From assembly GCA_023150915.1 (NCBI GenBank), contig JAKLKA010000059.1, positions 1 to 62,326 on the forward strand: a DNA stretch of 62,326 nt, in the 5' to 3' direction. Below the pieces are notes generated by a model. The model was not told the DNA's origin. It was given only the letters and a program-made list of their open reading frames with translations, and ran no database searches. This DNA comes from Polyangiaceae bacterium (lineage in GTDB: Bacteria > Myxococcota_A > Polyangia > Polyangiales > Polyangiaceae). Below, in pieces: positions 13,713 to 24,880 of this stretch (within the stretch, counting starts at the first letter, position 1; each line of letters begins with the position of its first letter). A program made the translations under genes and the position numbers.

Positions 13713-13773
13713 CTGCCCTTTGCACGAGGAGGTTTCTCCGAGGCCCGGGAGCGTGTTAGCTCGGCGCATCCCC

Positions 13774-15651
13774 ATGTCCGGGTCCTCGGCCACGGCCGCC
13801 GCACCGTTTCTGAAGCACACCGACGCCTTCCGGCGCCGGCGCTTCTTCAACTGGTTCCCGCTCGGCGTGACCTACGCGCTCTTGTACATGGCCCGGTACA
13901 ACCTCACGGTCGCCAAGAACTCGCTGGGCGAGCTGATGACCAAAGAGGACTTCGGGATCATCTTCGGCGCCGGCACCGCGGTGTACGCCGTGGCGTTCTT
14001 GCTCAACGGGCCGCTGATCGACCGGCTGGGCGGAAGGAAGGGGATGTTGGCGGCCGCCGCCGGCGCGCTGGTGGCCAATCTGGCCATGGGCGCGTACCTC
14101 TACCACGTGGTGTCGTCGGGCCAGGCCACGTCTGCGCCCCTGCGCCTGGTGTTCGGCGTGCTCTACGCCGTGAACATGTACTTCCAGAGCTTCGGCGCCG
14201 TCTCGATCGTGAAGGTGAACGCGCACTGGTTCCACGTGACCGAGCGCGGGGGGTTCTCGGGCATCTTCGGCACGATGATCTCGAGCGGGATCTTCCTCGC
14301 GTTCACCGTGAACGAGCTGCTGCTCAAGGCGGCGCAGCGCATCTGGCCCGACGCTCAGGGGCCCAACGTGGCCTGGGTGGTGTTCGTGATCCCGGCGGCC
14401 CTGCTCGGTCTGTTCTTCGTGATCGAGCTGTCGGTGCTGCGCGACAAGCCCAGCCTGGCTGGCCACCAAGACTTCGACACCGGCGATGCATCGTCGGGCG
14501 ACACCAGCGACACACCCACGCCGGTCTTGACGCTCTACAAGCGCATCCTGACCCATCCGGTGATCATCACCGTGGCGCTGATCGAGTTTTGCACCGGGGT
14601 TCTGCGCAACGGCGTGATGCACTGGTTCCCGATCTATGCGAACGAGATCTGGTCGCTGCAGTCCGAGCACGCGCTGCGCGGCGGGGCGCTGCTCTTGGCC
14701 ATGCGCGACGGCGCCTGGGGGCCGCTGTGGCCGGCGCTGCCTTGCTTCGGCGTGGCGGTGATCTCGGCCTATCTGGCCAAGAACGCCTCGGGCAGGCGGC
14801 GCGGCGCGTACGCGGTGGGGGCGGCCCTGGCGCTCTTGGCGCCGTTCATGCAAGGCGGCTGGGGCGGGCTCTTGATGGTGGCCGGGGTGATCGGCGGCAA
14901 CCTTGCGGGTTGGGTCAGCGACCTCTTCTTCCAGAGTCGCCGCGGCCCTGCTGCCGGCTTCCTGTACGGGTTCTTGGCGCTGTGCGTGCTGGGAATGGGG
15001 TTCTCGCTGGCGAGCCCGACCAACGTCGTGGCCTGGGCCGACGCCAAGAGCGGGCTCGTGCCCGGCGACGCGATCGTGGCCATCGGCGGCGACCGCGAGG
15101 TCAGCGGCTGGGCCGAGGTGCGCAACGCCGTGGCGTGCGTGCCCGCGCACTGCAAAGACTCGGGCTGGGACGCCGCGAAGTGCATGTGCGTCTCGGCGCG
15201 GGCGGCCGCCCCTGCCGAGAAGCGTGAGCCGGTGATCGCGGCTCGTATCGAACGTGCCGGCCAGCAAACGGACGTCGCGCTGCCGGATCCGAAGCCCACT
15301 CAGCGCGCGGGCGACATGCGCTTCCTCAAAGCCCGACCGGTGCTGCCGCTCTCACCCTATGTCTTGGGCCTGCTCGTGTTCATCGTCAGCCTGTGCGTGA
15401 TCGGCACCCACGGGCTGCTCAGCGGGACGGCGACCATGGATTTCGGCGGGCGCAAGGGCGCGGCCACGGCGGTCGGCGTGATCGACGGCTTCGTCTACCT
15501 GGGCACGGCGCTGCAGTCCGTGGCGCTGGGCTTTCTGACCACCAAGAGCTGGGCCTATTGGCCGTGGTTCTTGTTGCCCTTCGCGGTGATCGGCTTCCTG
15601 CTCACGCTGCGGATCTGGAACGCGAAGCCCAAGGGCGGCGGCGGGCACTGA
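13774..15651 (+). CDS. Organophosphate-type MFS transporter with periplasmic PDZ-like insert
   Basis: 625-residue inner-membrane transporter. The ARYNLTVAKN segment after TM1, the D-x-LGGRKG loop and GWVSDLFFQSRRGP resemble the OPA family (GlpT/UhpT), which exchanges phosphorylated sugars or glycerol-3-phosphate with phosphate. Two features are unusual: two additional hydrophobic helices between the canonical TM7 and TM8, and an insert at about residues 415-505 in the external loop before TM10. The insert contains a PDZ-like core (SGLVPGDAIVAIGGDREVSG), then a Cys-rich segment (C-x4-HC ... C-x-C). The ATG at 13774 is chosen because the conserved cytoplasmic start follows directly; an ATG at 13720 would add 18 non-conserved residues. 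The substrate is not predictable. Confidence 0.85.
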   Translation: MSGSSATAAAPFLKHTDAFRRRRFFNWFPLGVTYALLYMARYNLTVAKNSLGELMTKEDFGIIFGAGTAVYAVAFLLNGPLIDRLGGRKGMLAAAAGALVANLAMGAYLYHVVSSGQATSAPLRLVFGVLYAVNMYFQSFGAVSIVKVNAHWFHVTERGGFSGIFGTMISSGIFLAFTVNELLLKAAQRIWPDAQGPNVAWVVFVIPAALLGLFFVIELSVLRDKPSLAGHQDFDTGDASSGDTSDTPTPVLTLYKRILTHPVIITVALIEFCTGVLRNGVMHWFPIYANEIWSLQSEHALRGGALLLAMRDGAWGPLWPALPCFGVAVISAYLAKNASGRRRGAYAVGAALALLAPFMQGGWGGLLMVAGVIGGNLAGWVSDLFFQSRRGPAAGFLYGFLALCVLGMGFSLASPTNVVAWADAKSGLVPGDAIVAIGGDREVSGWAEVRNAVACVPAHCKDSGWDAAKCMCVSARAAAPAEKREPVIAARIERAGQQTDVALPDPKPTQRAGDMRFLKARPVLPLSPYVLGLLVFIVSLCVIGTHGLLSGTATMDFGGRKGAATAVGVIDGFVYLGTALQSVALGFLTTKSWAYWPWFLLPFAVIGFLLTLRIWNAKPKGGGGH

Positions 15652-15655
15652 CCCG

Positions 15656-17227
15656 TCACACGATCCGCTCGATGCGCCGGATGCCCTTGCGCGACACGAC
15701 CACGCGCAGACGGTGCCATGACGAATTGGGGTCGTCGGCGCGGCGCAAGCGAAACACCACCGCCAGGTTGTAGACCCGCGGCGCCTTTGCCGCGCCGATC
15801 TGGTTCGCCACCGGGTCGGCGAACACGATGTCGCGCTTGGGGTCGTCGGTGTGGGCCAGCCACCGGCTCACGTCCAGGCGGAAAATCTCGGTCAGGGCCG
15901 AGAAGCGCGGATCGGCCAGCGCCACCCGCTGCGCCTGCACCTGGACCTCTTTCTTGTGGAACAGAACGGTCTCGGGTCGGGCCTGCTCTTCGAGCTCGTG
16001 GCCGCGCGTCAGCCGCCGTGCCGCCAAGACCGGAGCGGGCAGGTCGGCCATGGGCACGAAGCCGCTCTGCTCGTTCATCTCGCCCAGCACCACCGCGCGC
16101 TCCCGGTCGCGGATTCGCCAGCGCCGGTCGGGGAAATGGCGGTCGACCACGCTCGACAACTTCGACTGCAGCAACGCCTTGATCCGGTCCTTCACCGCAT
16201 AAGCCACCACGCCGACCAGCACCCAGGTGATGACCCCTTGGGAGCCGACCGCGAAGCCGTTCCAGATCGCCGCGCCGATGGCGAAGGCCATGGCGATGGA
16301 TGCCGCTGCGGCGTACGAGATCTCGCGGACCCAGGTGGCGGCCGGGCGCACCTCGGGGCTGAGCCAGAGCACCGACGACGTGAAGCGCTTGAGCAGGTGG
16401 CGGCGGAACTCGAGCGCCTCGATCTCGCGCCCCGTCATCGCCAGCCGCCCGGTACGACCGATGCCAATGTCGTCGCGATAGTGCGCCTCGGCAATCGCCG
16501 CCTGGGCGACCAGATCGATCAGCGAGCGCGGCGCGCCCGCGGTGTCGAGATGTCGTGACACGGTGGCGAGCAAGGTCTCGATCAGTCGAGAGACGTCTTC
16601 GTCCACCCACTTGGCAGCGGTCTCGAGCAGGTCGCCGCGCCCGGCGGCTTGAGCCAAGGCGTCGCGCAGCTTCTGCCCGATGCGCTGGCAGTCACTGACC
16701 ATGCGCGCGGCTGCCTGCTCGGCCCGATGCCGCTCGCGCTCGCTCTTGCCGAGCGCGTCGATGATCCGCGCGCGAAGCTCGACCCCGGCTGCCCGCACCT
16801 GGCACGCGAACAAGCGCATCTCGCGCACGGCCGCCTCGTCGCTCCCCTCGAGGGCGGTGCGCAGCTTGTCGATGGGCTCACCGGCCAGATCGGCGAACTC
16901 GACGTCCGGCACCTCGAAGCGCACGTAGGTCTGCAGGTCGGTGTAGATGTCCGTCTTGTCGTAGGTGCGGCTGTCGAGCCGCAGGCTCTCGGGGGCGAAG
17001 AAATAGGCCTCCCAGACGAACGACTCGACGGCGCGGCCCGGTCGCAGCCGGTAGTCGATGGCCAGCTCGAGGTGCGTCTTGTCGTGGACGTGGACCGTGG
17101 GCTCGTCGCGGCCGCGGGACAGGTCGGCGACCAGCGAGCCCCAATCGCTCGGGCGGTCGGGCGCGCGCAGCGAGGGGCGAGGCTCGGAAGTCGGGGACTC
17201 GCCAGAACGGTGGGCAGAGGTCACCAA
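15656..17227 (-). CDS. Conserved hypothetical protein with two central TM segments
   Basis: 523 residues. The N-terminal 300 residues are soluble and charged, with long helices. Two adjacent hydrophobic segments at about 303-350 form a membrane hairpin, which puts the N- and C-terminal domains on the same (probably cytoplasmic) side. The C-terminal 170 residues contain VVDRHFPDRRWRIRDRERAVVLGE and end in a beta-rich section. I do not recognise a characterised family and see no catalytic motif. It follows the four-gene operon at 17.3-22.2 kb after 46 bp on the same strand and could be its last gene; it is convergent with the transporter with 4 bp between stops. Confidence 0.75.
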   Translation of the reverse strand: MVTSAHRSGESPTSEPRPSLRAPDRPSDWGSLVADLSRGRDEPTVHVHDKTHLELAIDYRLRPGRAVESFVWEAYFFAPESLRLDSRTYDKTDIYTDLQTYVRFEVPDVEFADLAGEPIDKLRTALEGSDEAAVREMRLFACQVRAAGVELRARIIDALGKSERERHRAEQAAARMVSDCQRIGQKLRDALAQAAGRGDLLETAAKWVDEDVSRLIETLLATVSRHLDTAGAPRSLIDLVAQAAIAEAHYRDDIGIGRTGRLAMTGREIEALEFRRHLLKRFTSSVLWLSPEVRPAATWVREISYAAAASIAMAFAIGAAIWNGFAVGSQGVITWVLVGVVAYAVKDRIKALLQSKLSSVVDRHFPDRRWRIRDRERAVVLGEMNEQSGFVPMADLPAPVLAARRLTRGHELEEQARPETVLFHKKEVQVQAQRVALADPRFSALTEIFRLDVSRWLAHTDDPKRDIVFADPVANQIGAAKAPRVYNLAVVFRLRRADDPNSSWHRLRVVVSRKGIRRIERIV

Positions 17228-17272: not shown

Positions 17273-17743
17273 TCACGGCGCGGCAGACAGCCATTCCATG
17301 GTGCAACGGCCGCTGTGACACGCGGCCCGGGTGAAGCACCCCCGCTCGGTGCACGCCACGCCGTTGCAGCTCTTCGGGTACTTTGCCGCCGCATCTTGGG
17401 CGTGAGCGCCATTGACCGCCACGGCCTTGCCACCGTTACACTGATCGCAGCAGGTGGTGACGACCAACGTGCAGTCAGTCGACACCGAGCAGGCCTGCCA
17501 CGCTTCCGGAACCGACACGCCCAGGTCCCGCGGCGCCCACTTCGAGCCCGGGAAGCCCGGTTCGGCAGGCTCGGCCGGCGGCGTGTCGGCGGGCTCGGCG
17601 GGGCCGGGGCTGCCGGCCACGGCGCCCGGCTCGCCGGGAGCGGGCTCGGCGATCGCCGGTGGGGCAGGGGACGCGACCGGGGGGGCGCCTGCAGCGCACG
17701 CGACGCCGGAGACGAGCAAGAGAAGCCAGAGTTTCGAGGTCAT
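17273..17743 (-). CDS. Cys-rich secreted lipoprotein-like protein
   Basis: 156 residues. The N-terminal signal ends SGVACAAG, so Cys16 may be lipidated. Residues 20-75 are a Pro/Ala/Glu spacer. The C-terminal 80 residues contain a pattern of Cys residues: CSVSTDC, TCCDQC, SCNGVAC, GCF and AC-x3-RC, about ten in all, consistent with a small disulfide-stabilised domain often found as the tail of myxobacterial surface proteins. It is joined to the upstream transporter gene by an ATGA overlap at 17740-17743, and is the fourth gene of that operon. Confidence 0.75.
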   Translation of the reverse strand: MTSKLWLLLLVSGVACAAGAPPVASPAPPAIAEPAPGEPGAVAGSPGPAEPADTPPAEPAEPGFPGSKWAPRDLGVSVPEAWQACSVSTDCTLVVTTCCDQCNGGKAVAVNGAHAQDAAAKYPKSCNGVACTERGCFTRAACHSGRCTMEWLSAAP

Positions 17744-19170
17744 GGGCTGCCTGGGGAACGCCGCTCGGGGGCGAAGCTTTCACCTACCGAGAGGCGCCGG
17801 TAGCCCGCCACGATTCTCCGCGCCAAGACCAGCCACAGGGCCACCAGCCCCACGTTGACCAGCGCGAAGGCGCGCACGCCCAGGTGAAGCTGGCTGCCGA
17901 GCAAGAACACCACCAGCGCCGAGCTCACGTCGCCCATGCGCACGAAGAACGTGTCCACGGCCTGCTTGGCCTTGTACTTCATCTCGCGCGTGGTGGGCAG
18001 CCAGAGCATGTTGCGGAGTGTGTTGTTCAGAGAATAGTCCGTGGCGTTCTCTGCGACCTTGCCGGGCAGCACCACCGCCAAGAGCGGCAGCGCAGCGGCG
18101 CCCAGCGCGTCGACCAGCGCGATGACCGGCAGCACGAAGAACGCGCGCTCGAGCCCCCAGACGCGGACCAAGCGCGAGACCACCAGCGCCTGCAGCGCGA
18201 TCGTGGCGACGTTGGTGTACAGATAGAATCGGCTGTAGGCGTCGCCGACCCACTCTTTCACCGCGCCCGGGCTTAGCGTACCGGCGAGCACCGCCTGGTC
18301 GGCGGAGGCCTTGACCAGCCTGCCGAGCACGTATTCACCGTTGGTGTTCACGAACGTGAAGAGCAGCGCGAACCCCGCGACGTAGCGCAGGTACTCGCTC
18401 TGCCGGACCAGCTCGAACGCGCCACCGTGGTCGCCCGGCGCGCTCGCGAGGCGCGGAACGGGCGCGCGACCCTCGCGCACGTGCACGATCTGCGTGAGCA
18501 CGGCCGTGACCCCGAGCAGGGCCGCCCCCACCAAGAGCATGTTGAACACCCCCACCCGCGCCAGCAGCCACACCGAGAGCCCGGCGCCCAGGACCGCCCC
18601 CAGCGTCTGCCCGACCCCCAAGAGCGGGAACAGTCGCTTGCCCTGTTCTTCGCGATACAGATCGTTGGCGAAGGCCCAGAACTGAGCCACCACCATCATG
18701 TTGAAGACGCCGAGCCACAGGTAATAGACGAGCCCGAGGCGCGAGCGCACGCTCTCGACGGAGCTGCCGGCCCAGAACAGCACCAGGTTCGCGGCGAAGA
18801 ACGCCGTGACGCCGACCACCAAGCGGTTACGCGGCTGCCGATCGGCGAAGCGTGCGTAGGCCGGCACGGCGAAGAGCAACGCCACCGCGATGGCGGCGCC
18901 CATGTACGCCTTGTATTCGGCGCCGGAAGCCATGGCCAGAATCAGGCCTTCGCGCACGGGCTTGATGGCCGAGTACGCGGTCATCAAGGTGAGCACGTTG
19001 AGCGTCATCAGCAGCGCCGAGACGCCCTCGCCGGGCTCGACGCGTGTGACCACCCCGAGTAGTCGCTCGAGCGCCGTGCGTTCGCGGGGCGATGAGGGCG
19101 CGGTCAAGTCAGCTCGGTGGGTCGTGGGAGTCGGGGCGTTCGAGGCCGACCACACGATAGCGGCCCTCAC
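17740..19170 (-). CDS. ATP/ADP-translocase-like (NTT/Npt) nucleotide transporter homologue
   Basis: 476-residue inner-membrane protein with about 12 hydrophobic segments. It matches the ATP:ADP antiporter superfamily (Tlc/Npt): the early TAYSAIKPVREGLILA segment, the FANDLYREEQGKRLFP loop, and the late LRNMLWLPTTREMKYKAKQAVDTFF motif. Characterised members import host ATP or exchange nucleotides in Rickettsia, Chlamydia and plastids; many free-living bacteria carry uncharacterised homologues. The GTG start at 19170 overlaps the upstream gene by 62 bp; TTG at 19107, just after that gene's stop, is a shorter alternative, and conserved sequence begins after both. ATGA coupling to the downstream lipoprotein. 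Transport substrate and direction are unknown. Confidence 0.85.
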   Translation of the reverse strand: MRAAIVWSASNAPTPTTHRADLTAPSSPRERTALERLLGVVTRVEPGEGVSALLMTLNVLTLMTAYSAIKPVREGLILAMASGAEYKAYMGAAIAVALLFAVPAYARFADRQPRNRLVVGVTAFFAANLVLFWAGSSVESVRSRLGLVYYLWLGVFNMMVVAQFWAFANDLYREEQGKRLFPLLGVGQTLGAVLGAGLSVWLLARVGVFNMLLVGAALLGVTAVLTQIVHVREGRAPVPRLASAPGDHGGAFELVRQSEYLRYVAGFALLFTFVNTNGEYVLGRLVKASADQAVLAGTLSPGAVKEWVGDAYSRFYLYTNVATIALQALVVSRLVRVWGLERAFFVLPVIALVDALGAAALPLLAVVLPGKVAENATDYSLNNTLRNMLWLPTTREMKYKAKQAVDTFFVRMGDVSSALVVFLLGSQLHLGVRAFALVNVGLVALWLVLARRIVAGYRRLSVGESFAPERRSPGSP

Positions 19171-20773
19171 CGAGGGAGTGGAGATGAACCCGCGCCGGGA
19201 ACGTCGAGCGGCCGTCGCTGGTGGCGGCGGTCACGTCCACCAAGAGCGGTGACCCGGCCGGCGCTGCCGGCAAGCGGGTGCAGATGGAGTGGCGGTCTGC
19301 CCAGCGCGTGGGGCCGAGCGGTGCCGGCGTGAGCGCCGTCCCCGCCCAGGCCCGGCCGGCGTAGCGTCGGGCCCCGCGCGGGGTGAGGCCCGCGCCGAGG
19401 GCCAGGTCCTCCAGGCACAGCTCGGGCCCGCGAGCCTCGGGCCAGCCCAGCGGCGACAGGCGCTCGAGGTAGCGACGCAGAACCTTGTCGCGGCGGCCGA
19501 TCAGCACCTCGAGCAAACGAGACTCGTGCTCGGGCAAGAGCAGGCCGGTCTTCACGATGGCGCGCAGATGGGCGTCCGAAAGGCGGGCGACGATCCGGGC
19601 CATCCACGCCGCGTCGCGCTCGCTCTTCCTGACGAACGCCGGGTTCGGGTAACCGGGCCGGAACGCATCGGGGTCGAAGTCGTCTACCCGGTAGTACGAG
19701 AACACCTTGCCGGTGCGCCCGAAGCGCGCTCGGTCCCACGGGCGCTCGATCGCGCCCAGGGTCAAGAAGTCCTCGAGCACGTGAGGGAAGTCGAGGTAGT
19801 AGCTGTGACCGATGCGTCGCCCCATCATCGGCGGCTCCCAGATGCTGCCGTAGGCGTTGCCCACGTCCAGAAGGTAGTGGCGGACGTGGCCCGATTTGCC
19901 GTCGTTCACCCAGGTTGCCATGGTGTTCTGCTCGCGGGTGTCGAACCACGCGAGCCATGCCGCCATCACTTCCAGCCCGCGCAGCTCGCGCCGATCTTCG
20001 TGTGCGACCACGTCGTTCGGGTCGTCTGCGCGGCGCCCTTCGTACGTCCACGGGCCCAGGGGCTTGCCTTCGACGAACAGGCTCATGCTGGCGCGGTATC
20101 GGCCGTCGGCCAGGCGCAGCGCCTTGGAGAACACCTGGTCCAGCGCGGCTTCTTCGAGCTTCACCTTCTCGCCGCGCTCGTTCTCGCTCTTGGCGTCGGG
20201 GTCGATCTTCAAGATCGAGCGGTCGAAATAGGCGATGCGATTGCACGGAACGAAGTACCCGGCGGCGTGGAACAGGCGCGTGCCGATGACGTCCGCCGCA
20301 GTGGGGCGCATGCCCTCGACCACGCCGTCGAACTTCACCAGGTAGCGCTTGCCGTCGTTCGCCTTGATGAAGAACCCCGGGTTGAAGCCGTTGGGCTTGG
20401 CGCCCTTGATCACCCAGGGGCCCTTGCGATCGGGCAGGGGCGAGGTGCACGGCCCCTGGGCGGCGGCCTCGGGGGTCATGCCGAACCGCCCGATGCGGTT
20501 TTGAAACCAGCTCGAGTCGGGCACTTCGTCCAGGGCGTTGACGTTCACCGCCTCGCCTGCCGGGTCGACCGCGAAGAACCGCGACACCGGTCGGAACACG
20601 GTCTGGTTGGCCGCGTCCCACGCGAACGGCGATTCGTACTCTTCGGGCTGCCGCTCGAACGGCCGCTGGTCCGGGTCGCGCCAGAGTGGATCGGCGTTGG
20701 GGAAGAACCGCGTGCTCGAGCCGCAGCCCACGGTAGCCCAGAGCAGGCAAGCGTGCAGCAGCCTAAAAGCCAC
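19109..20773 (-). CDS. Exported lipoprotein with kinase-like signature
   Basis: 554 residues starting at GTG 20773, which overlaps the upstream stop by 11 bp. The N-terminal signal ends WATVGC (Cys17), so the bulk of the protein should lie outside the cytoplasm. Residues about 125-315 carry an atypical kinase-like pattern: a hairpin ending RYLVKFDG with Lys147, a helix RPTAADVIGTRLFHAAGY, then WFDTREQNTM (Asp278 and Asn283, like a D-x4-N catalytic loop) and HYLLDVGNAYG (Asp303 in a DVG, like DFG). HipA- and PI4K-type kinases have the same spacing order. The C-terminal 240 residues include an SPLGWPEARG segment and a beta-rich end. Kinase activity is inference; the protein lies between an Omp85-like barrel gene and a nucleotide-transporter homologue. 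Confidence 0.8.
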   Translation of the reverse strand: MAFRLLHACLLWATVGCGSSTRFFPNADPLWRDPDQRPFERQPEEYESPFAWDAANQTVFRPVSRFFAVDPAGEAVNVNALDEVPDSSWFQNRIGRFGMTPEAAAQGPCTSPLPDRKGPWVIKGAKPNGFNPGFFIKANDGKRYLVKFDGVVEGMRPTAADVIGTRLFHAAGYFVPCNRIAYFDRSILKIDPDAKSENERGEKVKLEEAALDQVFSKALRLADGRYRASMSLFVEGKPLGPWTYEGRRADDPNDVVAHEDRRELRGLEVMAAWLAWFDTREQNTMATWVNDGKSGHVRHYLLDVGNAYGSIWEPPMMGRRIGHSYYLDFPHVLEDFLTLGAIERPWDRARFGRTGKVFSYYRVDDFDPDAFRPGYPNPAFVRKSERDAAWMARIVARLSDAHLRAIVKTGLLLPEHESRLLEVLIGRRDKVLRRYLERLSPLGWPEARGPELCLEDLALGAGLTPRGARRYAGRAWAGTALTPAPLGPTRWADRHSICTRLPAAPAGSPLLVDVTAATSDGRSTFPARVHLHSLGEGRYRVVGLERPDSHDPPS

Positions 20774-22196
20774 TGGTCGCCCCCACCACGAAGCGCACGC
20801 TCTCGATCTCGGCACCGCCGCGGAAGGTCTCCGTGCCGAAGGCCACCAGCAGCTCGAAGGCGTGGTCGCGGTTGCCGGTAGAGCGAATGCCCATACCGAA
20901 CGACTGCCGGCACAGCGCCAGATCGAAGCCATTCAAGTGCTCACCGAACACGTTGCCCACCGCATAGTGCATCGCGCCGTCGAGCCACACCCAGATCGGA
21001 TACTGGTAGTCGACCTGAGCCACCGCCGCGCTTCGCCCCACCAGGCGACCCTCGAGAAAACCACGGAGCGGCCGAGGCCCCCCGAGTGACGCTTGCTCGG
21101 TGAACGGGATCTCGCCCCCAGCCTGCACCGGATCGGAAAAATCGGTGATCAGCGACAGGCCCAGCACGCGCTGGGTCCCGGTCAGATCGACGAAGCCGCC
21201 GAGCGTGCCGCCATATTCGACCCAGTGATGGCGCTCGGGCGTTCCCGCGTCGACACGCGGCAGGTCACGCAGCCCGGCCGCGTGCTCGCCGCGCAGCTGC
21301 AGGCGAAGGCCACCCCCGGGGGGGGACACGTAGTCGCTGGCTTCCGGCAGATCGTCCGGAACCCTGCGTGGACGCGTGTCGAGCTCGAGCACCAGGCTCT
21401 GCACCACCACGCTGTAGCCGTCGGCCATCCCGGGTGGCGACGGGTAGCGCCCGCGAGCGATCTCTTGGGCCACGGTCGGGTCGTCGTCCCAGGTGCCGAT
21501 CGTGGGGTCGAAGCTCACGTCTCGCACCCCCACGAAGCTGGATACCGCGCTCGATCGCCACAGCCCGGCGTCGTAGCGTACGCCGGCCTCGGCCTTGCGC
21601 ATCTTGAAGCGTGCGGCCTGGGCGCCGGACTCGGGCCCGAGCCCGTGGAACACCCAATCTGGGCGCGTGCCCCACTCGGCCCGTGCCCCCAGCTCTTGGT
21701 CTTTCGCCACCGTCAGCCGATCGCCGAGGTTGAAGAGCCACCAGTCGGTGCCGCCGGTGGCCGCCCGCGCCCGCAGCTTGTTGTCGTCTGCCAGAAACTG
21801 GTTGTAGCGGAAGTAGGCGCCCACGCTGGCGCGGAAGCCGAAGTCGACCAGGCCCGTCGGAACGATCGCGATGTTGCCGTCGGGGCCGAAGGTGAACACG
21901 TCCACCAGCTTCTGCGGGATGTCGTTCTTCTCGGCTTCGGACACCACCCAGCCCAGCGGCCGCCGCACCACGTATTCGCTGAGCAAGTACAGCGGCGACA
22001 GGGCCACCCGGGGGATCCAGAGCAGCACCTCGCCCGGGGTGGTCGGGTCGTCGCCGCGCCGGTCGTAGTCCGGCACCGCGCGCTTCTGGTCGCTGGCGAT
22101 GGGCGGATCCGACGCCGGCTTGGGCGCTGGCGCCGCTGAGGCGTTCGCCGCGACGGTCAGCAGTGCTGCGATCGCCTGGGCCCTCACGACCGGCAC
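20763..22196 (-). CDS. Omp85/D15-type outer-membrane barrel protein
   Basis: 477 residues with an N-terminal signal peptide (ends ANASAAPA) and no recognisable POTRA repeats. From residue about 100 the sequence is a run of amphipathic strands; near the end GGPRPLRGFLEGR gives the (V/L)RGF loop-6 motif diagnostic of the Omp85/BamA/TpsB barrel, followed by YQYPIWVWLDGAMHYAVGNVF and a last strand ending in Phe. It probably assembles in the outer membrane as a patatin-associated or surface-antigen-like single barrel. GTG start at 22196, divergent from the nucleotidase gene with 44 bp between. It is the first gene of the four-gene operon. Confidence 0.82.
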   Translation of the reverse strand: MPVVRAQAIAALLTVAANASAAPAPKPASDPPIASDQKRAVPDYDRRGDDPTTPGEVLLWIPRVALSPLYLLSEYVVRRPLGWVVSEAEKNDIPQKLVDVFTFGPDGNIAIVPTGLVDFGFRASVGAYFRYNQFLADDNKLRARAATGGTDWWLFNLGDRLTVAKDQELGARAEWGTRPDWVFHGLGPESGAQAARFKMRKAEAGVRYDAGLWRSSAVSSFVGVRDVSFDPTIGTWDDDPTVAQEIARGRYPSPPGMADGYSVVVQSLVLELDTRPRRVPDDLPEASDYVSPPGGGLRLQLRGEHAAGLRDLPRVDAGTPERHHWVEYGGTLGGFVDLTGTQRVLGLSLITDFSDPVQAGGEIPFTEQASLGGPRPLRGFLEGRLVGRSAAVAQVDYQYPIWVWLDGAMHYAVGNVFGEHLNGFDLALCRQSFGMGIRSTGNRDHAFELLVAFGTETFRGGAEIESVRFVVGATSGF

Positions 22197-22240: not shown

Positions 22241-22810
22241 ATGAGCGCCGAGGATCGCATCATCGACACCGTGCTCGCTCTCGATCCGCTCGCCGACCTG
22301 CCGCGCACCGGTTGGCTGCTCCGCGGCGTGCGCCCCTGCGAGTCGATCGCCGACCACAGCTTCGGCGTCGCGCTGGTGGCCATGCTGCTCACCGATGCGC
22401 TCCGCGCCGAGGGGCAGAGCGTGGACGGCGAGCGCGTGCTGCGCATGGCCCTGGTCCACGACGCGCCCGAGGCGCGCACCGGTGACGTGCCGATGCCGGT
22501 GAAGACGGCCGAGGCCGCGCGCGCCCTCGACGCCGTCGACGAGGGTCTGGCGCACGCTCTCTTGCCGGCCGAGTTGCTCTCTGCCTGGCGAGAAGCCGAA
22601 GCTGCCGAGAGCCTGGAAGCACGCATCGTGAAGGCTGCCGACAAGCTGCAGATGATGATCAAGGCGCATGCTTACGGCGGCCAGAAGCGTGGCCAGCTGG
22701 ACGAGTTCTGGCAGAGCCCCAGGAACTTCCGAGACATGGGCCTGCCCCTGGCTCGGCGCGTGTACGATCGGTTGTGCGAACGCGCCGGGCGAGCGCGACC
22801 CGGCGGGTAG
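22241..22810 (+). CDS. HD-domain phosphohydrolase (YfbR-like 5'-nucleotidase)
   Basis: 189-residue cytoplasmic enzyme of the HD_3/YfbR class, which dephosphorylates (deoxy)nucleoside 5'-monophosphates. Metal ligands are visible as SIADHSFG (first His), LVHDAPEAR (His-Asp) and KAADKLQMM (final Asp). The length is typical. ATG at 22241. The stop at 22810 is 8 bp before the next start, so the two genes are likely co-transcribed. Substrate range cannot be read from sequence. Confidence 0.88.
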   Translation: MSAEDRIIDTVLALDPLADLPRTGWLLRGVRPCESIADHSFGVALVAMLLTDALRAEGQSVDGERVLRMALVHDAPEARTGDVPMPVKTAEAARALDAVDEGLAHALLPAELLSAWREAEAAESLEARIVKAADKLQMMIKAHAYGGQKRGQLDEFWQSPRNFRDMGLPLARRVYDRLCERAGRARPGG

Positions 22811-22818
22811 GGAACGGC

Positions 22819-23307
22819 GTGGCGACGGAATACCCCGTGACCCTGGCGGTGCGCGCGCTGCGTGCAGCCAACGTGACCTTCGAGCCCCACGTCTTCGCCT
22901 ACCAGGCTCACGGTGGCACGCGTCACTCGGCCGAGGTGCTGGGCGTGGACGAGCACAGGGTGATCAAGACGCTGATCTTCGAGGACGAGACCCGCGCGCC
23001 GCTGTGCGTGCTGATGCACGGCGATTGCGAGGTCTCGACCAAGAACCTCGCGCGTCAGATCGGCCACAAAAGGGTGGCGCCCTGCGATCCGAAGGTCGCC
23101 GAGAAGCACTCTGGCTACCTGGTGGGTGGCACGAGCCCCTTCGGCTTGAAGAAGCGCATGCCGATCTACGCCGAACGGACCATCGGCGCGCTCGATCGCC
23201 TCTTCATCAACGGTGGCGCTCGTGGCTTTCTGGTGGCGATTTCTCCGGCGGACTTGGCCCGCGTTCTGGCCCCGGTGTGGGTGGACGCTACGACCGAGGG
23301 CGCGTAA
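22819..23307 (+). CDS. ybaK: Cys-tRNA(Pro) deacylase, YbaK/EbsC type
   Basis: 162-residue editing-domain protein that hydrolyses Cys mischarged on tRNA-Pro. It shows the family elements: an N-terminal helix, VIKTLIFED, the catalytic-region Lys in STKNLARQIGHKRV, the YLVGGTSPFG motif (the conserved GG-x-SPFG) and a C-terminal INGGARGFLVAISP. GTG at 22819 with GGAA just upstream is chosen; an upstream ATG (22774) would lie inside the preceding gene. Part of a small cluster with the nucleotidase and, 52 bp on, a Ser/Thr kinase. Confidence 0.92.
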   Translation: MATEYPVTLAVRALRAANVTFEPHVFAYQAHGGTRHSAEVLGVDEHRVIKTLIFEDETRAPLCVLMHGDCEVSTKNLARQIGHKRVAPCDPKVAEKHSGYLVGGTSPFGLKKRMPIYAERTIGALDRLFINGGARGFLVAISPADLARVLAPVWVDATTEGA

Positions 23308-23359
23308 GCTAGTTCACTGTCCGATTCGCGGGGCGGCTGGTCGCCGCCTCGGGGCCACC

Positions 23360-24880
23360 ATGAGCACCGCCGCGGCTACCAAGAAGCCCTTCCCTCCCGG
23401 CATGCCGGTCGGGGAGGGCGACGTCATCGCCGGCAAGTACCGCGTCGAAGAGCTGATCGCCGTCGGCGGCATGGGCGTGGTGGTCTCGGCTCGGCACCTG
23501 TCGCTCGGCCAGACGGTGGCCATCAAGGTGCTTCTGCCGCTCGAGGTCAGCGACGACTCGACCTCGGCGATTCCGCGCTTCTTGCGCGAGGCGCGCGCTG
23601 CCGCCGGGCTGAAGAGCGAGCACGTGGTGCGCATCTTCGACGTGGACACCCTGCCCAGCGGCTTGCCCTACATGGTGATGGAGCGGCTCAGTGGGCAAGA
23701 CCTTCGCCGAGTGGTCAAGCTCGGCGGGCCGCTGCCGGTGGAGCAGGCGGTCGACTTCGTGCTGCAGGCGGCCGACGCCATCGGCGAGGCCCACTCGACC
23801 GGGATCGTGCACCGCGATCTGAAGCCTTCCAACCTGTTCTTGACCCACCACACCGACGGCCGCCCCTGGGTGAAGGTCCTCGACTTCGGCATCTCGAAGG
23901 CCTCTCACGATCCGACCACCGACACCGCGCTCACGGTGTCGCGGGCGATGATCGGCTCGCCGATGTACATGTCACCCGAGCAGGTGCGTGACGCCAAGAG
24001 CGTGGACGGCCGCTCGGACATCTGGTCGCTGGGCGTGATCTTGCACGAGCTCTTGACCGGCAAGCCGGCGTTTCGTGGCGAGTCGTTGCCGGCGATCTGC
24101 GCGGCCATCGCCGCGGATCAACCGCAGTCGATCGCAGCCGAGCGGCAAGACGTTCCGCCCGAGCTGGTGGCGATCGTCGAGCGCTGCCTGGAGAAAGATC
24201 CCGCGCGGCGCTTCCGGACGGTGGACGAGCTCCGCGCTGCTCTGCAGCCGTTCCTGGGGCGATTCGCGCCGACCCTGCCGGTGCCCCCGCCGTCGGTGCG
24301 CACCGGCCCGATTTCGGGCCGCGTGCCCCTTGGCTCGAGCGGTAGCATCGACGTGGCCGTTGGCCTGGTCAGCTCGGGCGCGTCGTCGTCTCCGACCTCG
24401 ATCCGGATCGACGGCAACTTCGATCGCGCGTCCGATCCCGACGCCCCCACGCTGCACCGTGACGCGGCCCCCGCCGCCTACGCGCCCTCGGACGCGCCCT
24501 TCTCGGCCACCGGCGTGGCGCCCGCGCGCCGCTCTCGCCTGCCGCTGGTGCTCGGGCTCACGGCCGTGGCGCTCGGGGTCGCGCTGGCGTTCGGTCTCAG
24601 CACGCTTCTCTCGTCGCGCACCAACGCCGCGGCGAACCCATCGCCGGCGGTGGGCGACGGGTCGCGCACCGCACCGAGCGCGGCTCGCGCCGAGCCCCCG
24701 CCGGCCCTGCCCGCGCCGACCGCCCAGGCTGCGCCGCCGGTGCCCTCCACCGTCGAGCCCGTGCCGTCGGCCACGGCCGCCCGGCCCACCGAGAAGAGCC
24801 GCGCTCGGCCGGCCGAGCCCAAGCCGTCGGGGAAGAAGCCCGACGCGACCAAGCCCGGCGACATTCGCCTCAGCCGCTGA
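23360..24880 (+). CDS. Membrane-anchored Ser/Thr protein kinase
   Basis: 506-residue Hanks-type kinase. Kinase domain residues 24-290: glycine loop AVGGMGVVV, Lys56, HRDLKPSN with catalytic Asp153, DFGISK (175-180), and the SPMYMSPEQ activation segment. A low-complexity linker leads to one TM helix at about 391-416, followed by a Pro/Ala/Lys tail, so the kinase faces the cytoplasm and a short basic tail is outside. There are no PASTA or other sensor domains. The ATG at 23360 is used because the conserved domain begins shortly after; upstream extension overlaps ybaK. Such kinases are abundant in myxobacteria; targets are unknown. Confidence 0.94.
   Translation: MSTAAATKKPFPPGMPVGEGDVIAGKYRVEELIAVGGMGVVVSARHLSLGQTVAIKVLLPLEVSDDSTSAIPRFLREARAAAGLKSEHVVRIFDVDTLPSGLPYMVMERLSGQDLRRVVKLGGPLPVEQAVDFVLQAADAIGEAHSTGIVHRDLKPSNLFLTHHTDGRPWVKVLDFGISKASHDPTTDTALTVSRAMIGSPMYMSPEQVRDAKSVDGRSDIWSLGVILHELLTGKPAFRGESLPAICAAIAADQPQSIAAERQDVPPELVAIVERCLEKDPARRFRTVDELRAALQPFLGRFAPTLPVPPPSVRTGPISGRVPLGSSGSIDVAVGLVSSGASSSPTSIRIDGNFDRASDPDAPTLHRDAAPAAYAPSDAPFSATGVAPARRSRLPLVLGLTAVALGVALAFGLSTLLSSRTNAAANPSPAVGDGSRTAPSAARAEPPPALPAPTAQAAPPVPSTVEPVPSATAARPTEKSRARPAEPKPSGKKPDATKPGDIRLSR

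Follow-up and report, generated by a model that had tools for sequence, protein, structure and literature searches.

The window analysed here is the whole 62,326-nucleotide stretch of contig JAKLKA010000059.1 (assembly GCA_023150915.1) from a Polyangiaceae bacterium. According to the open reading frame (ORF) list and its translations, four minus-strand ORFs lie in tandem at 17273-22196 and encode an Omp85-like outer-membrane barrel, a lipoprotein with kinase-like residues, a membrane transporter of the NTT family and a small Cys-rich lipoprotein. The barrel ORF (20763-22196) and the kinase-like lipoprotein ORF (19109-20773) both start with GTG and overlap by 11 bp. Counted from its first GTG, the transporter ORF (17740-19170) overlaps the lipoprotein gene by 62 bp; with a later start this overlap is lost, and the relatives in our transporter alignment (A3) begin near residue 38. 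The Cys-rich lipoprotein ORF (17273-17743) starts with ATG and overlaps the transporter by 4 bp. The four-gene run described in the first-pass annotation, with overlaps of 11, 62 (depending on the start) and 4 bp, is thus confirmed.

Three of these four genes, those for the kinase-like lipoprotein, the barrel and the transporter, are a recurrent module in Myxococcota. The arrangement goes beyond chance, since other genera and families also show barrel and lipoprotein side by side and transporters close by.

The kinase-like lipoprotein and its barrel partner

The lipoprotein gene (19109-20773, minus strand) encodes a putatively exported protein whose lipobox cysteine, C17 (20723-20725), lies in ATVGC and is followed by Gly at position +2. 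Its relatives were aligned as A1, which holds the window protein and 15 rows from 13 loci (L004-L016, with two rows each from L007 and L013; the fragment L017 was excluded). A cysteine stands near position 17 in all 16 rows and, by eye, none has Lys or Asp directly after it. A Lys at +2 is the inner-membrane retention rule for M. xanthus lipoproteins in the available part of PMC3222651. The Gly at +2, being neither Lys nor Asp, predicts placement of the lipoprotein in the outer membrane.

An AlphaFold2 (AF2) model built with A1 (pLDDT 77.5, pTM 0.83) predicts a bilobal kinase fold of the Fam20/HipA/PI4K/CotH type at residues ~106-438, followed by a C-terminal Ig-like beta-sandwich at ~440-545. 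The top Foldseek matches were the Golgi casein kinase (4kqa; E 4.9e-5, probability 0.99) and Fam20A/C. In VIA-align the best matches were CtkA (Z 13.8 over 235 residues, rmsd 4.9), DrFam20C1 (Z 13.5) and PI4KIIalpha (Z 12.1), with CotH (Z 11.4-11.5) and HipA/HipT (Z 9-11) lower. The C-terminal domain gave Ig-like VIA matches at Z 7.3-7.7, scores that may reflect a mere common arrangement.

Invariant columns of A1 include K126, G129, G133, F134, K147, D251-P-N-D254, H258, R261, R262, D278, N283 and H299. When the family profile was compared with HipA_2 proteins, the aligned region spanned residues 134-319 (for one target, E 2.1e-4 and probability 45%), and K147, D278/N283 and D303 fell on the kinase Lys, the catalytic loop and the metal Asp, respectively. 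K147 (20333-20335), the predicted nucleotide-binding Lys of a YLVKFD strand, falls on VVK of the HipA_2 proteins; the predicted catalytic-loop residues D278-x4-N283 (DTREQN, 19925-19942) fall on NVDRRAKNPN; and D303 (19865-19867), the predicted DFG-like, metal-binding Asp of LLDVGNA, falls on LIDHG and is nearly invariant. Pfam returned a sole match, HipA_2 (PF20613), at E 0.18 and 11.5 bits against a cut-off of 27, and HipA_2 appeared at E<=1 in 2 of the 16 A1 rows. Fam20C (PF06702) gave no Pfam match at E<=10, in a search whose filters drop most weak matches, and no match to CotH (PF08757) was reported. The lipoprotein found no match among solved-structure sequences, either alone or as an alignment, nor in plasmid records or NCBIfam, and its best PHROGs match was at E 0.084. 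As the only significant link is to the HipA_2 profile and no family cut-off was reached, we assign the protein to the protein-kinase-like superfamily and not to HipA_2, Fam20C or CotH. The first-pass annotation had called this a kinase-like lipoprotein and had proposed comparing its predicted structure with HipA, Fam20 and PI4K folds; a kinase-like fold was returned by AF2, Foldseek and VIA, the catalytic positions are conserved, and the idea withstood the comparison.

Fam20 kinases (Fam20C, Fam20A), with which the lipoprotein shares its predicted fold, are secretory-pathway kinases whose compartment needs its own nucleotide supply, and they have pseudokinase relatives. Unlike them, the lipoprotein is bacterial, is paired with an Omp85 protein, carries the extra C-terminal beta-sandwich and is without a Pfam Fam20C match. 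HipA, HipA_2, HipT and CtkA provide its best profile link (HipA_2) and its best fold match (CtkA). HipA and HipT are cytoplasmic toxins; the lipoprotein differs from this group in its lipobox, a conserved DEVPDSSWF segment and a DPND..H..RR motif, and it lies far below the HipA_2 cut-off. A protein of the Fam20C family (PF06702), lipobox-like at its N-terminus, is also encoded in the genome of the window (L139, G000:C83:76472-76861).

The barrel gene (20763-22196, minus strand) encodes a protein of 477 aa with a signal-peptide-like N-terminus, helices at ~54-100 and 16 predicted strands at 109-474. Its AF2 model (pLDDT 72.2, pTM 0.68) resembles the barrels of BamA, TamA and Sam50 (BamA at Foldseek E 1e-8; VIA Z 22.7 over 311 aligned residues, rmsd 4.0), and the protein is predicted to be a 16-stranded barrel of the Omp85 superfamily, as the earlier label of an Omp85-like barrel had it. 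The Pfam Omp85 match of the window protein is below the cut-off (E 0.0021); at E<=0.1 the family was found in 9 of the 12 rows of the barrel alignment A2, at best with E 1.2e-14. An RGF motif, which we take to be a hallmark of Omp85 proteins, lies in GGPRPLRGFLEGRLVG. Only helices or disorder precede strand 1 at residue 109, so that the POTRA domains of BamA and TamA are missing. A barrel without POTRA is also the build of the noNterm Omp85 proteins, as the accessible part of PMC4104836 describes them; unlike those, the window-type barrel is regularly paired with a kinase-like lipoprotein.

The distribution of the lipoprotein was surveyed in 377 Myxococcota genomes with the A1 profile at E<=1e-3. 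Matches were found in 51 genomes, 7 of which are covered over a C-terminal part only. The loci examined comprise 61 places (L018 among them) and nine more, all nine degenerate, and leave aside G214:C143, G317:C562, G317:C258 and the C-terminal-only matches. Extra loci came from a contig scan with six short exact-peptide patterns, which finds close relatives only. For counting we used 79 full-length copies, the window included; identical loci (L049, L050, L051, L055 and L056) and fragments with <440 aligned residues were excluded, and near-identical copies from sister species were retained.

The Lys, Asp, Asn and Asp at positions 147, 278, 283 and 303 are all present in 61 of the 79 copies, window included, at identities down to ~35%, which would be difficult to account for if the protein neither catalysed a reaction nor bound nucleotide. 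At least one of them is lost in the other 18, of which 13 form one clade that includes a paralogue from the window's own genome (G000:C207); outside this clade, only L087 has lost more than one. The DPND..H..RR residues are retained exactly in 14 of the 18 degenerate copies. Of the 61 intact copies, 53 have a barrel relative within 600 bp, as do 17 of the 18 degenerate ones, so the pairing outlives the active site, and the barrel is the lipoprotein's most constant partner. Among the eight intact copies without a near barrel, at least three (L066, L101 and L102) have a contig end nearby on one flank. The own-genome paralogue (L018, 1702-4496) is itself a pair of barrel and lipoprotein with its kinase residues lost. 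Weak matches to positions 369-442 of the lipoprotein profile were also seen inside open frames of ~860-2000 aa in G005, G079, G288, G297, G300 and G303.

The transporter and its linkage to the kinase-like gene

The transporter (17740-19170, minus strand) belongs to the NTT/TLC family (Pfam TLC, PF03219; E 4.6e-13, 49.2 bits, cut-off 21), and a 20-row transporter profile matched solved NTTs over nearly its full length (9j3n, E 2.6e-23; 9j3j, E 4.5e-16). Three kinds of transporter gene occur near the lipoprotein gene, namely the window's own subfamily, TLC-A; TLC-B, which has long ORFs and, in some loci, neighbours that bind cyclic nucleotides (cNMP); and the rare TLC-C, which was found at three loci of two lineages (L064 and L065 of one genus, and L103), 2-6 kb from the kinase gene. 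Both TLC-A and the longer TLC-B ORFs are members of the NTT family. Through its ORF length and cNMP-binding neighbours, TLC-B recalls the NTT-HEAT/cNBD sets of free-living bacteria treated in PMC5381601, the accessible part of which mentions no linkage of NTT genes to an exported kinase.

The charged residues K155, E245, E385 and K527 (AtNTT1 numbering) are important in ATP/ADP translocases according to the available parts of PMC10654386 and PMC4256464. Residues G91, G154, E279 and D414 of the window transporter align to these positions in the solved AtNTT1 (9j3j) and a second ADP,ATP carrier (9j3n); a plain ATP/ADP translocase was rejected on these four residues (G, G, E, D). TLC-C has charges of the canonical type there (Lys/Arg, Asp, Asp and Lys).

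Of the 61 intact lipoprotein copies, 30 have a transporter gene of some kind no more than 8.5 kb away, and 15 of the 61 have two; where 5 kb or more of sequence flanks the copy on either side, the figure is 24 of 41. Among the degenerate copies the count is 2 of 18, both with a single residue lost, and 0 of 9 with 5-kb flanks (intact versus degenerate, Fisher 0.002), a contrast that is essentially that of one clade of 13 and so close to a single evolutionary event. The order and strand of the transporter differ among loci, a variation that favours selected linkage over inertia. Two genomes of one genus, G172 and G353, assembled in 1 and 2 contigs, each have three kinase genes and five transporter genes found, four of which are no more than 10 kb from a kinase gene; under independent placement P would be ~7e-9 in each, which overstates the significance because two of the four linked transporters in each genome are close together.

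At the level of whole genomes, the window-type transporter was scored at E<=1e-90, a cut chosen after the list had been inspected, with no match between 2e-94 and 4e-78. Of 37 genomes whose kinase gene is intact or nearly so, 32 carry this transporter, versus 35 of 333 without such a gene (Fisher 2e-22; this test and the preceding one ignore relatedness) and none of 7 with degenerate copies only. Within the window's own family the counts are 10 of 11 for intact, 0 of 7 for degenerate-only and 0 of 17 for other genomes (10/11 versus 0/24). At most four candidates per genome were considered. The 37 kinase genomes include G355 (D303 lost), G217 (K147 to Q), G316 (K147 uncovered) and G214 (residues not examined); G005, G032, G079, G288, G297, G300 and G303, which have C-terminal-only matches, were counted as kinase-negative, and G081, with a TLC-A fragment at a contig end, was scored as lacking TLC-A. 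The survey of related genomes suggested with the original idea therefore found both clustering and co-occurrence of kinase and transporter, and did not refute it.

The surroundings of TLC-A were taken for 20 of the 35 kinase-negative genomes that have it, and 20 neighbour proteins, chosen by eye, were scanned. A PF13354 beta-lactamase-like gene adjoins TLC-A at eight loci; the remaining 12 neighbours, ten of them from a second scan, had no family in common. In the TLC-A tree the PF13354-linked loci form a separate clade, and the other kinase-negative TLC-A genes are intermixed with kinase-linked ones. The former clade and the kinase-linked genes together imply more than one kind of partner for TLC-A. 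A Fam20-family gene was seen near TLC-A in 2 of the 20 kinase-negative loci, at ~5 kb in L164 (G027, a genome selected with this gene already noticed) and at ~1.5 kb in L182 (G357). At L172-L178 and L180, where the PF13354 gene lies beside TLC-A, several of the pairs overlap or nearly so, and the SLPK, SxN and K[SA]G motifs can be read in alignment A4.

Other genes in and around the run

The small Cys-rich lipoprotein (17273-17743, minus strand) had no Pfam match at E<=10 and no NCBIfam match at E<=1. Among 76 loci scanned, window included, it was present only in the window, L004 (= L049) and L052, all of the same genus, and on this ground it was dropped as a core part of the module. Of the four genes joined in the earlier view, three recur across Myxococcota, and this one was seen only within the genus.

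A divergent HD-domain gene at 22241 (Pfam HD_3, E 1.9e-29) borders the run upstream; 45 bp downstream of the run, on the same strand, an ORF (15656-17227) has PhoU as its best Pfam match, below the cut-off (E 0.022). Clustering of the neighbours of kinase loci gave one cluster found in 24 loci, with a window member (23150-24877) that looks by eye like a Ser/Thr kinase, and smaller clusters of histidine kinases, short-chain dehydrogenases and cNMP-binding proteins, the last near the kinase gene in 10 loci and with two members confirmed by Pfam. None of these neighbours matches the barrel for regularity. Further off, an ORF for an MFS-type transporter (13720-15651, plus strand) appears by eye to have a PDZ-like stretch inserted between its transmembrane parts.

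A possible envelope reaction and its alternatives

Gene linkage, predicted folds, residue conservation and co-occurrence point, at somewhat less than an even chance in our estimate, to an envelope module in which an exported, active kinase-fold lipoprotein works with a dedicated barrel and, in many species, an envelope-serving carrier of the NTT family. Location, activity, the role of the barrel, substrate, direction and target may be pictured as follows. The lipoprotein would be exported, lipid-anchored in the outer membrane and act there as a kinase-fold enzyme, with K147 and D303 holding nucleotide and metal and D278/N283 catalysing transfer to an envelope substrate. The POTRA-less barrel would be its dedicated membrane partner, most likely serving to anchor the lipoprotein or to pass it through to the surface. 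An inner-membrane carrier of the NTT family would serve the reaction in many species by moving a small charged metabolite between the cytoplasm and the periplasm; the leading candidate cargo is a nucleotide, swapped for its spent form, and a supply of ATP to the periplasm by the transporter is plausible.

Several results weigh against this module, in addition to the limits attached above to the Fisher tests, the clade contrast and the score cut. The lipoprotein model has pLDDT <50 at 128-130, 247-255, 279-281 and 312-326, some of these at or near the active site. Profile alignments of the family with Fam20C (E 0.021 over 23 columns) and CotH (E 0.36) were not significant, and local HipA_2, Fam20C and CotH protein profiles found no member of the family at E<=1e-3. 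Among the 41 intact loci with 5-kb flanks, 5 have no barrel within 600 bp and 17 no transporter within 8.5 kb. At E<=1e-3, 138 of the 377 genomes contain PF03219 members, which makes the transporter family far commoner than the kinase, and four kinase-less genomes of the window's own family have transporter matches at 1e-71 to 1e-74. PF13354 genes made up 8 of the 10 TLC-A neighbours in the first scan. Finally, unlike NTTs with the key residues, TLC-A retains one of the four charges (E385), with Gly, Gly and Asp in place of K155, E245 and K527, the last of which is thought important for NTP transport in the accessible text of PMC4256464. The three absent charges and the PF13354-linked clade leave a nucleotide substrate for TLC-A not established. 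What had been proposed, an ATP/ADP-translocase-like nucleotide source, thus holds as to PF03219 membership and the profile match to NTTs, and loses ground as to the residues and the partners.

These last points lead to a rather unlikely alternative in which TLC-A forms a separate subfamily of NTT-like carriers and transports a metabolite of the envelope, such as a cell-wall or lipid intermediate, to be used or recycled by the exported enzyme, with ATP coming from leakage or lysed prey or not being needed. It would account for a carrier in which three NTT charges are replaced and K70, R73, E74, K87, R411 and D414 (besides E279) are invariant or nearly so, and for the eight kinase-negative loci with PF13354 neighbours. 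These loci are, however, a TLC-A clade of their own, so that the substrate there may differ, and this alternative has to reckon with the strong co-occurrence with the kinase across genomes, the Fam20-family genes near TLC-A in two kinase-negative loci and the canonical-type NTTs in three kinase loci. Loss of the residues in TLC-A is not decisive either, because ThNTT1 and ThNTT3 of T. hominis, with three of the four charged residues changed, still transport ATP and GTP, as reported in the part of PMC4256464 at hand.

Two further alternatives concern the lipoprotein. Kinase folds can AMPylate or glutamylate, and it is possible, though improbable, that this one does so or that it phosphorylates a lipid or glycan and not a protein; the lipid kinase PI4KIIalpha (Z 12.1) is among the structural neighbours besides the Fam20 kinases, and no result here points to one particular substrate, but K147, D278, N283 and D303 resemble ordinary phosphotransfer residues. 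Alternatively, the lipoprotein could act as the barrel's structural partner, with a kinase fold that serves as a pseudokinase-like scaffold and a transporter linkage that is regulatory or historical. The 18 copies with a lost active-site residue, 17 of them still paired with a barrel and 14 with DPND..H..RR exactly kept, would fit such a scaffold, which we consider distinctly unlikely given that 61 of 79 copies retain the full set of four active-site residues.

The envelope module thus keeps the fold, the residues, the barrel, and the clustering and co-occurrence of the interpretation first put forward, parts with the Cys-rich lipoprotein as a member, and treats nucleotide as a candidate substrate of the transporter. 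In a bolder form, which we regard as unlikely, it would be a bacterial counterpart of the Golgi/endoplasmic reticulum (ER) arrangement: the NTT-family carrier would load the periplasm with nucleotide, and the outer-membrane lipoprotein kinase, held or displayed by its own POTRA-less barrel, would phosphorylate the envelope or the cell surface, with prey or kin as conceivable targets.

ATP is generally taken to be missing from the periplasm, so exported bacterial kinases face a supply problem. Among the open-access literature matches listed, no title linked an exported kinase with both an Omp85 protein and an NTT, which leaves the absence of such a report unproven. A small fraction only of NTT-family genes has been studied experimentally, according to the available part of PMC5381601. 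The recurrent cluster of a kinase-fold lipoprotein, a barrel and a nucleotide-transporter homologue offers a concrete, genetically testable case of the supply problem, and it could suggest why some free-living bacteria retain NTT-family genes.

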